Positions 53,338 through 64,000 of a stretch of 64,000 bases of DNA are shown here, in pieces. The notes under the pieces are model-generated. The model saw only the letters and a list, made by a program, of their open reading frames with translations, searched no databases and was not told where the DNA came from. Location: positions 1-64,000 of the forward strand of contig JAGWBI010000004.1 of NCBI GenBank assembly GCA_021295965.1, given 5' to 3'. Every line of letters starts with the position of its first letter. Within the stretch, counting starts at the first letter, position 1. Position numbers and translations under genes: made by a program. Source of the stretch: Dehalococcoidia bacterium (lineage in GTDB: Bacteria; Chloroflexota; Dehalococcoidia; Lucifugimonadales; UBA3495).

Positions 53338-56013
53338 TCAGGCCGCGGCGCCGCAGCAGCGCTTGTACTTCTTGTCGCTCCCGCAAGGGCATTTGGAATT
53401 GCGCCCAATCTTGCGGCCGGCCCGTGGAGCGGCGGCGTTTCGCGCCGGCGAAACTGCCTCCATGGGACTGACGGGGGCTCGGGAGTTGCGCCGACTCCCG
53501 GACGTAGATGCGTCGTCGTTCGGCGAAGAACGGGCCGGTGGCGCTTCCGGCGCGAGAGTTACGTGGAACAGGGTGTGCGTGACGTCCCGCTGCATCTGTC
53601 GCGTCAACTCGGTAAAAGCCCGTTGACCCTCGGACCGGTACACGGTGAGCGGGTCCCGCTGCCCGACCGCCTGCAGGCCGACGCCAGTGCGCAGGTTTTC
53701 CATGTGGGTGAGGTGGTTGACCCAATGGGTGTCGATGGATTTCAGAAGCAGCAACCGAACCAGGGTCTCCATGTTTTCTGCGCCCATGGACTGCTCTTTG
53801 GATTGGTAAAGGGTTTCGGAGTACGCCTCCAGGATGTCCTCAATGTGGTCGCGACGGAGTTGCGACACCTTGTCGGCATTGTCCAATTCGGTAGGGGGTG
53901 GGCAGATTTGTCGCAATCCGGACAAGAATCCATCTATGTCCCAGTCATCGGCGTGGCGTGACTGCAGGTGAGCGTCCATCAGCCGGTCGAACTCCGCGCC
54001 CAGCATGTCCACAACCCGCTCTCTAAGTCCCTGGTTGGTCAGGATATTGGAACGCTGGTCGTAGATGACTGACCTTTGTTGATTGAGCACGTCGTCAAAA
54101 TTGAGGAGGTGCTTCCGCATGTCGAAGTGATGACCTTCTACCTTCACCTGCGCGCTGGTGATGGACTTGGTGATCAGCTTGTTCTCCAGCGGCTCATCGT
54201 CGTTGAGACCGGTCCAGTTCATCACGTTTTTGATCCGGTCGCCGCCGAAGCGCTGCATCAGTTCGTCTTCAAGGGCGATAAAAAACTGGCTGCTGCCGGG
54301 GTCTCCCTGGCGTCCAGCGCGGCCCCGGAGCTGGTTATCCACACGACGCGCTTCGTGATGCTCGGTGCCGATGACATGGAGGCCGCCCAGGGAGATAACT
54401 TGGTCGTGCTCCTGCCGCCAATCGTCGCGGTCGGTGTCTGCGCCGCCCAGCACGATGTCGGTTCCGCGGCCGGCCATGTTGGTGGAGACGGTAACAGCTC
54501 CGGAGCGTCCCGCCTGGGCTACGATCGACGCTTCCTGTTCGTGGTTGCGTGCGTTGAGTACTTGGTGCTCGACGCCGCGCTTGCGGAGCCGGTCGCTCAG
54601 GACTTCGGACGTTTCTATGGAAGTGGTTCCCACCAGCACGGGTTGTCCGGCAGTCGAACGGTCAATGATGGCGTCTATCACCGCCCGCCACTTACCCTCT
54701 TCGGTGGGGAAAATCAGATCGCTGCTGTCGTCGCGTATCATTGGTAGGTTGGTAGGTACGGCGACGACCTCGAGGCCGTAGATTTTGTAGAATTCGTCGG
54801 CCTCGGTGACTGCGGTTCCGGTCATACCGGCCAATTTCCGGTACATTCGGAAGTAGTTTTGCAGAGTGATGGTGGCGTAAGTGACGCTCTCGCGCTGGAC
54901 CCTCAGGCCTTCTTTCGCCTCCACTGCCTGGTGGAGACCGTCGGCCCAGCGTCGCCCGTACTGCAGGCGACCGGTGAACTCGTCAACGATGACGACTTCT
55001 CCGTCGGCGACGACATAGTCCTTGTCCTTGACCTTCTGCACCTGGGCGACGACAGCATTTTCAACGTACTGGACCAGATGGAAATTTTCCGGATCGTACA
55101 GATTGTCCACGCGCAGGTGTCGTTCGGCTTTTCCGATGCCCTCTTCGGTCAGTGAAATTGCCTGAGTGCGCTCGTCAATTGTGTAATCCTCGTATTCGCG
55201 CAGACGAGGAGCCAACCGGGCGCAATTGGCGTAGTGTTCCACCGGTTGTTGTGCCGGGCCGCTGATGATCAGAGGTGTGCGGGCCTCGTCGATGAGGATG
55301 TTGTCAACCTCGTCCACGATGGCGAAATTGTGGCAGGGCCGGCCCGCGTCACGAGACTGGACCTGCAGGTCGGAGGTTACAGCCATGTTGTCGCGGAGAT
55401 AGTCGAATCCGAACTCGTTGTTGGTGCCGTATAGCACGTCGGCACGATAGGCTTCGGCGCGAGAAACCGGAGTCAGGTGGCGATAACCGCCCCGGCCCGG
55501 GTCGTCCATGGTGGGGTCGTAGATGTGGGCCGCGTCATGCTGGAGGCAACCGACCGTGAGGCCCAGGAGGTCGTACACCGGTCCCATCCAAACCGGGTCG
55601 CGGCGGGCCAGGTAATCGTTGACGGTAACGATGTGCACGCCACCGCCGGTGAGCGCGTTCAAATATGCGGGAAGGGTGGCGACCAGAGTTTTTCCTTCGC
55701 CGGTTTTCATTTCGGCGATTTTCCCCTGATGCAGGACTGCGCCGCCAATGATCTGAACGTCGTAGTGGCGCTGGCCGAGGGTGCGGCGCGCTGCCTCCCG
55801 TACGACGGCAAAGGCTTCGGGCAACAGGTCGTTTAAAGATGCCCCATCATCCAGGCGGCGGCGGAACTCACCGGTCTTGGCTCTGAGGCCATCATCGCTG
55901 AGGTTTTGAATGGTGCTTTCTAGTCGGTTGATTTGGGGTACCAACTGACTGCGAAGTTTTTCGGCGGCCCGTTCGGGCGTATCTCCGACAATTTTTTTCA
56001 GGAACGAAACCAT
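53338..56013 (-). CDS. secA: Preprotein translocase motor SecA (housekeeping)
   Basis: The 891-residue ATPase pushes unfolded preproteins through SecYEG. It shows Walker A EMKTGEGKT, the DEAD-like FAIVDEVDNILIDEARTPLIISG, VEAKEGLRVQ and LAGMTGTA in the first half, and the DRGTDI-equivalent AGRGTDIVLGG with QLRGRAGRQGDPGSS in the second. The C-terminal zinc motif KCPCGSDKKYKRCCG, for SecB or lipid contact, is intact. Length and all domains are normal. It is the standard of comparison for the divergent SecA at 62175. Confidence 0.97.
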   Translation of the reverse strand: MVSFLKKIVGDTPERAAEKLRSQLVPQINRLESTIQNLSDDGLRAKTGEFRRRLDDGASLNDLLPEAFAVVREAARRTLGQRHYDVQIIGGAVLHQGKIAEMKTGEGKTLVATLPAYLNALTGGGVHIVTVNDYLARRDPVWMGPVYDLLGLTVGCLQHDAAHIYDPTMDDPGRGGYRHLTPVSRAEAYRADVLYGTNNEFGFDYLRDNMAVTSDLQVQSRDAGRPCHNFAIVDEVDNILIDEARTPLIISGPAQQPVEHYANCARLAPRLREYEDYTIDERTQAISLTEEGIGKAERHLRVDNLYDPENFHLVQYVENAVVAQVQKVKDKDYVVADGEVVIVDEFTGRLQYGRRWADGLHQAVEAKEGLRVQRESVTYATITLQNYFRMYRKLAGMTGTAVTEADEFYKIYGLEVVAVPTNLPMIRDDSSDLIFPTEEGKWRAVIDAIIDRSTAGQPVLVGTTSIETSEVLSDRLRKRGVEHQVLNARNHEQEASIVAQAGRSGAVTVSTNMAGRGTDIVLGGADTDRDDWRQEHDQVISLGGLHVIGTEHHEARRVDNQLRGRAGRQGDPGSSQFFIALEDELMQRFGGDRIKNVMNWTGLNDDEPLENKLITKSITSAQVKVEGHHFDMRKHLLNFDDVLNQQRSVIYDQRSNILTNQGLRERVVDMLGAEFDRLMDAHLQSRHADDWDIDGFLSGLRQICPPPTELDNADKVSQLRRDHIEDILEAYSETLYQSKEQSMGAENMETLVRLLLLKSIDTHWVNHLTHMENLRTGVGLQAVGQRDPLTVYRSEGQRAFTELTRQMQRDVTHTLFHVTLAPEAPPARSSPNDDASTSGSRRNSRAPVSPMEAVSPARNAAAPRAGRKIGRNSKCPCGSDKKYKRCCGAAA

Positions 56014-60744: not shown

Positions 60745-62178
60745 ATGCCGCCATCCCTGATCCTGCGTATTACAGATAGCGTCTCCGGCCGAACTGCGGC
60801 TCTGCGGCTGGACTGCCCCGCTGACCAGGCGGCCCCGTTGGGTCGTTTGCTGGAACGCTACTTGAGAGACGCGCCCAACGATGACCGCCTGATCCGGACC
60901 GGGGCGGTTACGACTGACGGTTTGCTATCCTTGCGGAACCTGCAGGATTTGGTGTATCGCTCCGACGACTCCGGCCGGCTAACCGAGATTTTCGCGGGCT
61001 TGAAGTTTCTCCAGGAGGGTAGGACAGCCTGCCTTGCCCAGCCGGCGTCGATACAGTCGGCGGCGGCCGGCGAAGTTCCTCTGGAATTGATCGATGTGAC
61101 GGTGGAACGCACTGACGCCGGTTACGACCGCAACTGGACCGGTTTTCACCGGCGCCGTTGGAACCACGATGCGCATTTTTATGAAGACTTCGTCCGCGAC
61201 GCTGTGGCTAAGGCATACGGTCCGAAAGAAAGTGAACGGGTTTTGCGTATGGACACGCCCGGCCGGCAACGAAAGTTGATTCGCGCGCTGGCGTTGCGCA
61301 TCTGGAACAGTGATTTCGAAAACTACTCGCGTTTCTCAAACGAAGGCTTGCGGTTCAAGGCCGGCGACGAGACGGTGCGGAACATTGCCGCGGACGCCGG
61401 CGGTATCTGCACCGAGAAGGTGCAAGCGTTGAAGTTCCTTACCGACCACGACCGGCTGGAGTCGGAATACCTGCTGGGCGGTCCAAATGCGCCAGGGCCG
61501 TTTCCGGCCGACCGGTTGCGGGAAATGCTTAACACCTTCGATTTCCGCTTCGCGCAGCGCCACATGCGCTACTGGCAACACGCCGCCCTGCTGTACTGGG
61601 TGGATGGCGAGCCTCTGTTGGTGGACGCCACCAACGGCAACATCCCCTTTCTTTTTCTCCAAGGCGATGCGGCCCAGCGGCTGTTGCGCGACGACGCGGC
61701 AGGAAATCGCCCCAGCGTGCCGGTGCAGATGGTGGCGGAAACGGAAGACTATTACTATCACCGGGTCGAACAGGACATTCCGCAAAACCTGTTTTTCGCC
61801 CTTGAAGGCTGGCTGGACGACGCTGACCTGGTGCAAGTGTTCGAGAACGAACTCGGTCTCTACCTGTCGGAGCGGCACTACGTGATGCCGCTGCTCTATC
61901 GTAGCGACAGAGAATTCCGGCGTTCTCAACAAAGGTACGAGGAACTCTGCCTAAACGCCGGTTTTCGCGTTGACGTGAGCGCGGACTGGAACCTGGATGG
62001 ACCAGTGGGGCAGGAACTTGCCGCCGTAAATCCGGCATTGGCGGCGCGCCTGCTGGCGGCAGAAGACAGACTGGTTGCCCGCTACGACTGGTGGGATTGT
62101 CCGGGACACCGGTCCGGCTTGGCCGTAATCGCGCTGAAACCGTCCGCCGGCACCTCACTTGAAGGGCGATCGCCATGA
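60745..62178 (+). CDS. Transglutaminase-like protein coupled to a SecA paralogue
   Basis: I do not recognise the full 477-residue protein as a named family. A central region looks like a transglutaminase-like (papain-fold) domain: C222 in AGGICTEKVQALKFL, H279 in WQHAALLYWVDGEP and D294 in LLVDATNGN give a Cys, His, Asp triad with the usual 15 residues between His and Asp. Up- and downstream parts are unknown and no signal peptide or membrane helix is seen, so it should be cytoplasmic. ATG 60745 is chosen because the upstream extension lacks protein character. Its stop overlaps the start of the SecA-like gene (ATGA), implying equal expression and joint function. Confidence 0.65.
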   Translation: MPPSLILRITDSVSGRTAALRLDCPADQAAPLGRLLERYLRDAPNDDRLIRTGAVTTDGLLSLRNLQDLVYRSDDSGRLTEIFAGLKFLQEGRTACLAQPASIQSAAAGEVPLELIDVTVERTDAGYDRNWTGFHRRRWNHDAHFYEDFVRDAVAKAYGPKESERVLRMDTPGRQRKLIRALALRIWNSDFENYSRFSNEGLRFKAGDETVRNIAADAGGICTEKVQALKFLTDHDRLESEYLLGGPNAPGPFPADRLREMLNTFDFRFAQRHMRYWQHAALLYWVDGEPLLVDATNGNIPFLFLQGDAAQRLLRDDAAGNRPSVPVQMVAETEDYYYHRVEQDIPQNLFFALEGWLDDADLVQVFENELGLYLSERHYVMPLLYRSDREFRRSQQRYEELCLNAGFRVDVSADWNLDGPVGQELAAVNPALAARLLAAEDRLVARYDWWDCPGHRSGLAVIALKPSAGTSLEGRSP

Positions 62179-64000
62179 GCGCAATGCCAGCCATGCCCAG
62201 GCTCCGCCGGACCGGGATGCGGCGCCCGCGCTCGCAGGAAGACCGGATCCTGCGAAGCATTCGGGCGACCCGGCGCGACTGGCGTATCGCCGATTGGTCA
62301 GACCGAGAGTTGCGGAAGGCCGTCGGCGATCTGAGGGATGAGTCTGCGTCCTCTGATTCAATACCGGAGGATACGCTGGTCCGTGTGTTCGCGGTGGTTG
62401 ACGAGACGATCCGACGCCGCCTGGGGTTGTGGCGAGTCTTCGACCTACCGGATGCCGACGAGCCAAGCATCGCAGACGCCCGCCGCAAGCTGGCCGCCGC
62501 CGGTCGAGGCCGCTACCCAGGAAGCGACTTGCTCCTTCCGGCGGAGTTTTACCAGACAGCTCGCCGCCGGCAAGCCTGCGACGCCGAGGTACTGCGCTTT
62601 CGCCCCACCGACGAGCAATTGCTGGCCGGCCTGCACCTGTGCCACGGCCGGGTCGTGGAAATGGCGGCCGGCGAGGGCAAGACCGTTGCTGCCGCCTTCC
62701 CGGCGGCGTTGTACGGTCTATTGGGTCGCACCGTCCGCGTCATTACCGCCAACGATTACCTTGCCGCCAGGGACGCCGAACTGCTGGCGCCCGTGTACCG
62801 AGCATTGGGGCTTACCGTCGGATCAGTGCTGGACCACATGGCCGGACCCGAGCGTCGGGAGTCCTACACCCACCGGATCATATACGGCACGCTACGCGAG
62901 TTCGCCTTCGACTACCTGCGGGACCGGATGGTGATGTCGCCGGACGAGCAAATCCAGGGGCCGCTGGACGTTGCTATCATCGACGAGGCGGACCAGACGC
63001 TGTTGGATGAGGCGGTCACTCCGATGGTCATTGCCGGCGCGCCTATCCTCAGCCGGCGTATGATTATTCGCGCCAATCGGGCGGTGCGGGAGCTCGCGGT
63101 GGAGCAGGCCCGGTTCGCGGAGGAATGCCGGAGCGAGCTGGAACAACGCGTTGCAAGCGGCTCGGCCGACGACGCGTCGGCGATGCTGCTGGCCCGGGCG
63201 TTGCTGGCCCAACCCGACGCTGGAGAGACACTTCGCTTGGCTGCTGACCATCCACGCCTCCGGCGCCGGGCCCGGTCCTTCATTGATACGGATGGATCCG
63301 GCAAACCCCGCCCGGAGGTTGAAGCAGGTCTGTATTGCGCGGTGGATGCCGAGAGAGGCAGCTTGAGCCTGCTGCCCGAGGGCGTAGCATTCCTGGAGGC
63401 TCGTCTGGGCGATTTGTACTCCACCAACACCGAAGACCTTAATCCAGGTTCGCGGCGAGCCGCCCAACGAATCGATCTGGTCAACCAAGTGCATCAGCTG
63501 CTGCGGGCCCACCTGCTGCTGCGCCGCGGCGTCGAGTACGTGGTGGACGATGACCGGGTGGTGCTGGTGGATCGGGATACGGGCCGTCCCCGGCCCGACA
63601 CTCACTACCAGGATGGGCTGCACCCAGCGGTGGAAGCCAAAGAAGGCGTGACAATTCACCCCGACCACCGGAACCTCGGGGAGATCAGTGTCCCGGGTTT
63701 CCTCCGCCGCTACCGGAGCCTGTCCGGTTTGACCGGTACGGCTGAGGCGGCAACCGACGAATTCCGCCGCCTTTATCAATTGGAAGTGGCCGTGGTTGCA
63801 GAGACCCGCCAAACGCATCGCCGGGATCTGCCCACTCGCGTGTACGCTAACTCCGAGGACCAACTGAGCGCAGTCGTGGACGAGGTACGAAACTGCCACC
63901 GGTCAGGGCGCCCGGTCTTGGTGGCCGCAAGGACAGTGGACCAGTCGGAGATCATCAGCCAACGGTTAAGCGATGCGCGTATCGGGCACCGTCTGCTCAA
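62175..64000 (+). CDS. Divergent SecA-like translocase ATPase, partial at right edge
   Basis: The frame is open from ATG 62175 to the window edge (608 codons). It has SecA order: HGRVVEMAAGEGKT for Walker A (EMKTGEGKT in housekeeping SecA), VITANDYLAARDAE, YGTLREFAFDYLRD, VAIIDEADQTLLDEAVTPMVIAG, a preprotein-crosslinking-like part ending in YVVDDDRVVLVDRDTGR, then AVEAKEGVTIHPDH and LSGLTGTAEAATDEF. The N-terminal 160 residues differ strongly from canonical SecA (Arg-rich). Motor residues are conserved, so it is probably active. It resembles accessory SecA2 proteins, which export special substrates. Its second ATPase half and C-terminus lie outside. Confidence 0.85.
   Translation, partial: MSAMPAMPRLRRTGMRRPRSQEDRILRSIRATRRDWRIADWSDRELRKAVGDLRDESASSDSIPEDTLVRVFAVVDETIRRRLGLWRVFDLPDADEPSIADARRKLAAAGRGRYPGSDLLLPAEFYQTARRRQACDAEVLRFRPTDEQLLAGLHLCHGRVVEMAAGEGKTVAAAFPAALYGLLGRTVRVITANDYLAARDAELLAPVYRALGLTVGSVLDHMAGPERRESYTHRIIYGTLREFAFDYLRDRMVMSPDEQIQGPLDVAIIDEADQTLLDEAVTPMVIAGAPILSRRMIIRANRAVRELAVEQARFAEECRSELEQRVASGSADDASAMLLARALLAQPDAGETLRLAADHPRLRRRARSFIDTDGSGKPRPEVEAGLYCAVDAERGSLSLLPEGVAFLEARLGDLYSTNTEDLNPGSRRAAQRIDLVNQVHQLLRAHLLLRRGVEYVVDDDRVVLVDRDTGRPRPDTHYQDGLHPAVEAKEGVTIHPDHRNLGEISVPGFLRRYRSLSGLTGTAEAATDEFRRLYQLEVAVVAETRQTHRRDLPTRVYANSEDQLSAVVDEVRNCHRSGRPVLVAARTVDQSEIISQRLSDARIGHRLL

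Follow-up and report, generated by a model that had tools for sequence, protein, structure and literature searches.

A conserved gene cluster of the SAR202 lineage encodes a divergent second SecA, here called SecA2, whose gene is directly followed by that of an Arg/Ser-rich lipoprotein. Judging from sequence comparisons, and with about even confidence, we propose that this SecA2 may be a dedicated motor exporting the lipoprotein, within a PspA/DUF350-type module predicted to be membrane-protective. The cluster begins near the end of the window, which comprises positions 1-64000 of a 97.8-kb contig (JAGWBI010000004.1) from a Dehalococcoidia bacterium (assembly GCA_021295965.1; 3.23 Mb, 86 contigs); its part beyond position 64000 was read from the same contig (G000:C33). 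A sequence-only reading of the window had singled out a Cys-His-Asp enzyme of 477 aa overlapping the start of SecA2. When an alignment of 47 enzyme sequences was used to scan genome contigs, 41 related loci emerged, all from records named SAR202, Dehalococcoidia or Chloroflexi/Chloroflexota, which together with the own locus make up the 42 loci compared here.

The SecA2 gene (62175..64000 in the window, + strand) ends at contig position 65249 and encodes 1024 aa. The motifs that had marked it as a divergent SecA were all found, namely Walker A (GKT168, with GEGKT encoded at 62670..62684), DEAD270 (62982..62993), VEAKEG486 and SGLTGTA517, together with TNMAGRGTD633 and GRSGRQG748. Four domains score above their Pfam cut-offs (SecA_DEAD, 253.5 bits; P-loop_SecA, 134.1 bits; SecA_PP_bind, 61.9 bits; SecA_SW, 48.6 bits), and SecA domains of the SecA2 from locus L024 likewise do so. 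The protein falls below the NCBIfam SecA equivalog cut-off (490 bits vs 814) and below all four NCBIfam SecA2 cut-offs (score/cut-off 427.9/1085, 388.4/930, 366.2/725 and 304.5/1100), the SecA2 models being 762-776 long vs its 1024 aa. GEGKT is present in 37/37 SecA2 open reading frames (ORFs), the own one included, four of which are shorter than 900 aa; among the 33 longer than 900 aa, GEGKT is kept in 33, GRGTD in 32, GRxGRQG (motif VI) in 31 and DEA[DV] in 30.

A quick tree separates SecA2 from 31 ordinary SecA proteins (SecA1; the own one and 30 from other genomes) by a branch with SH-aLRT 100 and stem 2.05. The ordinary secA of this genome lies upstream in the window (53338-56013, - strand), and its proximity had been read as a sign that SecA2 is a paralogue; the paralogy is supported, but the proximity is not conserved, SecA1 being a neighbour in 0/41 related loci. 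In SecA1, 238 columns reach 97% identity or more; at least 90% of SecA2 retain 88 of these, and 78 survive in fewer than 20%. Up to residue 600 of the own SecA1, SecA2 keeps 83 and loses 56 of 198 such columns, and past that residue it keeps 5 and loses 22 of 40. The C-terminal part of SecA2 is rebuilt, while the motor motifs are intact. SecA2 also carries an insert between motifs V and VI, and the C-terminal zinc-binding motif found in 27/31 SecA1 occurs in 0/37 SecA2, of which five or more are truncated and the own one is complete. The proline that ends a helix of the two-helix finger, present in 31/31 SecA1, is found in 0/31 SecA2, with six further SecA2 gapped there; similarity in this region is low and the alignment is anchored by the D-x-x-W-x-x-H preceding the finger.

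The sequence to the right of 64000, to which the sequence-only reading had looked for the rest of SecA and for substrates, holds a likely substrate as well: the lipoprotein (about 65293-66168, + strand; lipobox LVAC) encoded directly behind SecA2. A lipobox pattern is present in 28/31 lipoprotein ORFs, and the protein combines a conserved domain with a basic tail of about 130 residues. Across 30 loci (L046 without its N stretch), the tail contains 12-21 Arg, 0-8 Lys and 0-9 Asp+Glu, and Ser makes up 18-35 of the last 140 residues. Its median net charge of +17.5 per 130 residues exceeds the 99.9th percentile (+15) of 13 other cluster families, and its Lys fraction is lower than that of the SecA2 from the same locus in 27/30 loci. 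The signal peptide, taken from 28 ORFs, has a lower hydrophobicity (mean 1.61 vs 2.46) and more Gly+Pro (3.1 vs 1.1) than those of 18 further lipobox ORFs of the loci. Arg is reported to limit how fast Sec moves its substrates, and in neutrophiles those substrates reportedly favour Lys (PMC9110029); the Arg-rich, Lys-poor composition of the lipoprotein is opposite to the one reported there. Lipoproteins named for the PspA/DUF350 polyamine operons are DUF1190 and Ctha_1186; the DUF1190 profile matched 1/19 members of the SAR202 family, at E 1.7. In genome G477 (locus L079), the lipoprotein frame holds one in-frame TAG, for which decay, sequencing error or choice of frame are possible causes.

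SecA2 and lipoprotein travel together. The gap between them is at most 186 nt in 30/31 loci with both (3285 nt in L022), and the six SecA2 loci lacking the lipoprotein (L014, L017, L018, L020, L028 and L043) stop inside or just past SecA2. SecA2 lies on the same strand and within 10 kb of the enzyme in 31/34 loci that extend 6 kb or more past the enzyme; in the three exceptions (L026, L042 and L045) it is found elsewhere in the genome, there too adjoining the lipoprotein. The expectation that the enzyme-SecA pair would be kept in order across relatives therefore stood as regards linkage but not as regards direct adjacency, seen in just 15 of the 37 loci that carry the two genes; the remaining 22 have RCK channel, AMP-ligase-like, GNAT-like or NspC/DUF3326 genes in between. 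For this reason we regard SecA2 and lipoprotein as a tight unit and the enzyme as a looser partner. Among 148 genomes drawn from the class, enzyme, second full-length SecA and lipoprotein occur in the same three (G000, G362 and G477; G362 appears to be G431, the genome of L037, with identical contig numbers and coordinates). No other genome of the 148 has, among the matches listed, a second SecA match over more than 200 of 290 positions, the remaining double SecA rows being fragments of one gene, contig ends or weak matches, and unlisted matches being weaker than E 1.5e-4. A second SecA, whole or partial, is present in 41/42 enzyme-bearing genomes, G409 having one SecA.

On the explanation that we favour, a tail with so much Arg and so little Lys, Asp and Glu would suit ordinary SecA badly, and the second SecA would exist to move the lipoprotein, feeding it through the single SecYEG. 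Lipid-anchored outside the cell, the lipoprotein would bind an anionic surface or lipid, whereas PspA would act at the inner membrane face, with the ion channel and the protein of the DUF350 family working within the membrane. As to the translocon, a SecY2 partner, named earlier as something to look for, was not found: none of the 42 enzyme-bearing genomes has two full SecY, and exactly one SecY match was found in 38, none in three (probably incomplete genomes) and two fragments in one.

Several observations weigh against this explanation. The finger tip Tyr is retained in just 8/31 SecA2, and a study of Clostridioides difficile SecA2 reports the finger proline to be missing in SecA2 having its own SecY2 (PMC7503281); since the finger here is changed as in SecY2-partnered SecA2, yet no SecY2 was found, use of SecYEG by SecA2 is not secure. 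Some windows of other cluster families match the tail in basicity (up to net +26), the Lys fraction of the tail exceeds that of SecA2 in 3/30 loci (L023, L030 and L034), and the signal-peptide control is small, its 18 ORFs perhaps including some that are not genes. Finally, the loci were retrieved via the enzyme, so that its presence in every locus is by construction, and in the three exceptional genomes the distance between enzyme and SecA2 is about 115 kb (L026) or more than 1 Mb (L045), or the two are on separate contigs (L042); the enzyme may therefore not act in export.

The enzyme gene (60745..62178, + strand) was confirmed as an ORF of 477 aa and shares ATGA (62175..62178) between its stop and the SecA2 start, as described from the window. 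The proposed triad holds up in homologues: Cys222 (codon 61408..61410, in GG-I-C-T-E-K), His279 (61579..61581) and Asp294 (61624..61626) are invariant in 47/47 aligned members and in 42/42 loci. The predicted fold has the papain-like core that had been anticipated and the features of an arylamine N-acetyltransferase (NAT) fold. Arylamine N-acetyltransferases carry the motif RGGxCxE, and at the corresponding positions of the enzyme the C, the E and the first G are kept in 42/42 loci and the second G in 34/42. The enzyme itself reaches no Pfam cut-off; weak matches to PF00797 occur in 4/47 members (best E 0.0026). NATs and amide synthases (7qi3, 4guz, ShGdmF) are the closest enzymes compared, from which it differs by low identity (8-16% to NAT-type structures), Foldseek TM-scores of at most 0.42 and an extra N-terminal domain. 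No signal peptide was seen by eye, no predictor having been run, and the enzyme is likely a cytosolic acyl or amide transferase. It would work with an amine supplied by the NspC-like decarboxylase of the cluster, and its target could be the lipoprotein tail or a small molecule.

The last option leads to the strongest competitor, less probable than export of the lipoprotein but a serious contender, in which the enzyme and the NspC-like, DUF3326 and AMP-ligase-like proteins would form a pathway for small molecules (acyl-polyamines), with no tie to SecA2 and the lipoprotein beyond a common membrane-stress regulon, and the enzyme would never act on an exported protein. This is countered by the ATGA overlap of enzyme and SecA2 and their linkage in 31/34 loci; moreover, ORF clustering gave no AMP-ligase-like member for the own locus or L006-L014, and Paa271 is without a Pfam family match. 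We consider it unlikely that the enzyme is instead a transglutaminase- or protease-type modifier processing the lipoprotein in the cytosol ahead of SecA2 export. The triad and papain-like core do agree with the original transglutaminase-like assignment, but NAT-type structures outscore transglutaminases as matches to the predicted fold, and no transglutaminase Pfam model is among the 12 families matched by the 47 members (E up to 5). Somewhat more doubtful still is the full scheme that these parts would compose, a third accessory Sec pathway in which a finger-rewired SecA, with neither SecY2 nor glycan partners, would serve one Arg/Ser-rich lipoprotein whose tail the NAT/transglutaminase-fold enzyme first joins to a polyamine-type amine, within a PspA membrane-protection machine of SAR202.

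It strikes us as improbable that SecA2 translocates no preproteins and instead works, independently of SecY, as a membrane or chaperone ATPase derived from SecA within the PspA complex. The rebuilt C-terminal part, the lost finger proline and zinc-binding tail and the missing SecY2 would fit it, but the preprotein cross-linking domain and both nucleotide-binding folds exceed their Pfam cut-offs, DEA[DV] (30/33) and motif VI (31/33) are kept, and the lipoprotein gene lies directly behind. The idea that a secA duplicate came to lie here by chance in a single genome, which the ordinary secA 5-10 kb away might suggest, is refuted by synteny and by the long separate SecA2 branch: the upstream neighbours (LldD-like, UvrD and SecA1) recur in 0/41 related loci, 29 of which hold at least 8 kb upstream, whereas the cluster is conserved.

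Behind the lipoprotein on the contig come a protein named here X374 (ending at 67246, + strand), DUF350 (67266-68147, -; 174.4 bits), a DUF4178-like protein (68179-68823, -; 23.2 bits vs a Pfam cut-off of 25), PspA (69230-69952, +; 84.7 bits), PspAA (70033-70311, +), DUF3326 (70334-71704, -) and the NspC-like decarboxylase (71692-72888, -; 264.6 bits vs a cut-off of 409.05). Over the 42 loci, ORF clustering gave SecA2 in 37, lipoprotein in 31, X374 in 30, DUF350 in 27, DUF3326 in 26, DUF4178-like in 19, RCK potassium channel in 19, NspC-like in 18 and PspA and PspAA in 13 each, with AMP-ligase-like or GNAT-like genes in 9-11; these counts are lower bounds because many loci end at the 10-kb flank or at a contig end. 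The dedicated secretion or processing module proposed from the window thus survives as a conserved cluster with a paralogous SecA, but PspA, PspAA, DUF350 and the DUF4178-like protein would point to membrane protection, along with amine metabolism, a pathway to which DUF3326 may belong. The DUF3326 and NspC-like pair accompanies the cluster on either side (L003:10334-12888; L080, L081 and other loci). An Ion_trans channel adjoins NspC in the own locus and two relatives (L003:12933-14003, L080:2552-3538 and L081:3293-4306), and an RCK channel lies behind the enzyme in 19 other loci, an apparent swap of channel type. In L082 (G420:C1:114000-133000), Paa271, channel, Paa426, GNAT-like protein, SecA2 and lipoprotein stand together, with the enzyme about 115 kb off. 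Downstream of the cluster, a transposase-like ORF (L003:14206-15393) and a protein of repeats in which a CWG motif recurs (L003:15340-15708) were recognized by eye.

Among known systems, the streptococcal SecA2/SecY2 pathway for serine-rich surface proteins shares with the SAR202 cluster a dedicated SecA2, a Ser-rich candidate cargo next door and a missing finger proline. Its cargo has a Gly/Pro-rich signal peptide, which the SAR202 lipoprotein parallels. It differs in that no two full SecY are found here, the candidate cargo is a short lipoprotein, and no glycosyltransferase is among the cluster families named by a search. SecA2 systems without SecY2 (mycobacteria, C. difficile) share a second SecA beside the housekeeping one, no second SecY and a presumed special substrate; set against these, the SAR202 protein meets no NCBIfam SecA2 cut-off, has 1024 aa with the motif V-VI insert and sits in a PspA/DUF350 cluster, and it has lost the finger proline that C. 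difficile SecA2 retains. A comparative study (PMC11237479) describes two groups (2 and 3) of PspA operons with DUF350, DUF4178, lipoprotein, potassium channel and polyamine enzymes, and proposes a role in membrane dynamics under stress. Shared with these are PspA, DUF350, the DUF4178-like protein, the lipoprotein, a polyamine-type enzyme and, in 19/42 loci, a potassium channel with a cytosolic sensing domain; SecA2, the Cys-His-Asp enzyme, X374 and DUF3326 lie outside the operons as described there, and in the SAR202 cluster PspA is flanked by PspAA in place of CesT/Tir. The text of PMC11237479 mentions neither SecA nor transglutaminase. The SAR202 cluster is a variant of the PspA/DUF350 operon with new parts. 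In the literature collection searched, no paper was found for SAR202 with SecA2, and the only one found for DUF350, DUF4178 and PspA has no SecA in its text; going by listings, only a Ktedonobacteria paper surfaced for SAR202 with SecA, and among the papers for SecA2 with Chloroflex- or with transglutaminase none concerns such a system by its title.

Most of what is known of accessory SecA systems comes from Gram-positive bacteria. The one described here belongs to an uncultured lineage, SAR202, in which no SecY2 was found, and is tied to PspA, DUF350 and polyamine-type genes. It comes with a concrete candidate cargo of a composition that ordinary Sec reportedly moves slowly (PMC9110029), and the reason for a second SecA therefore becomes testable.
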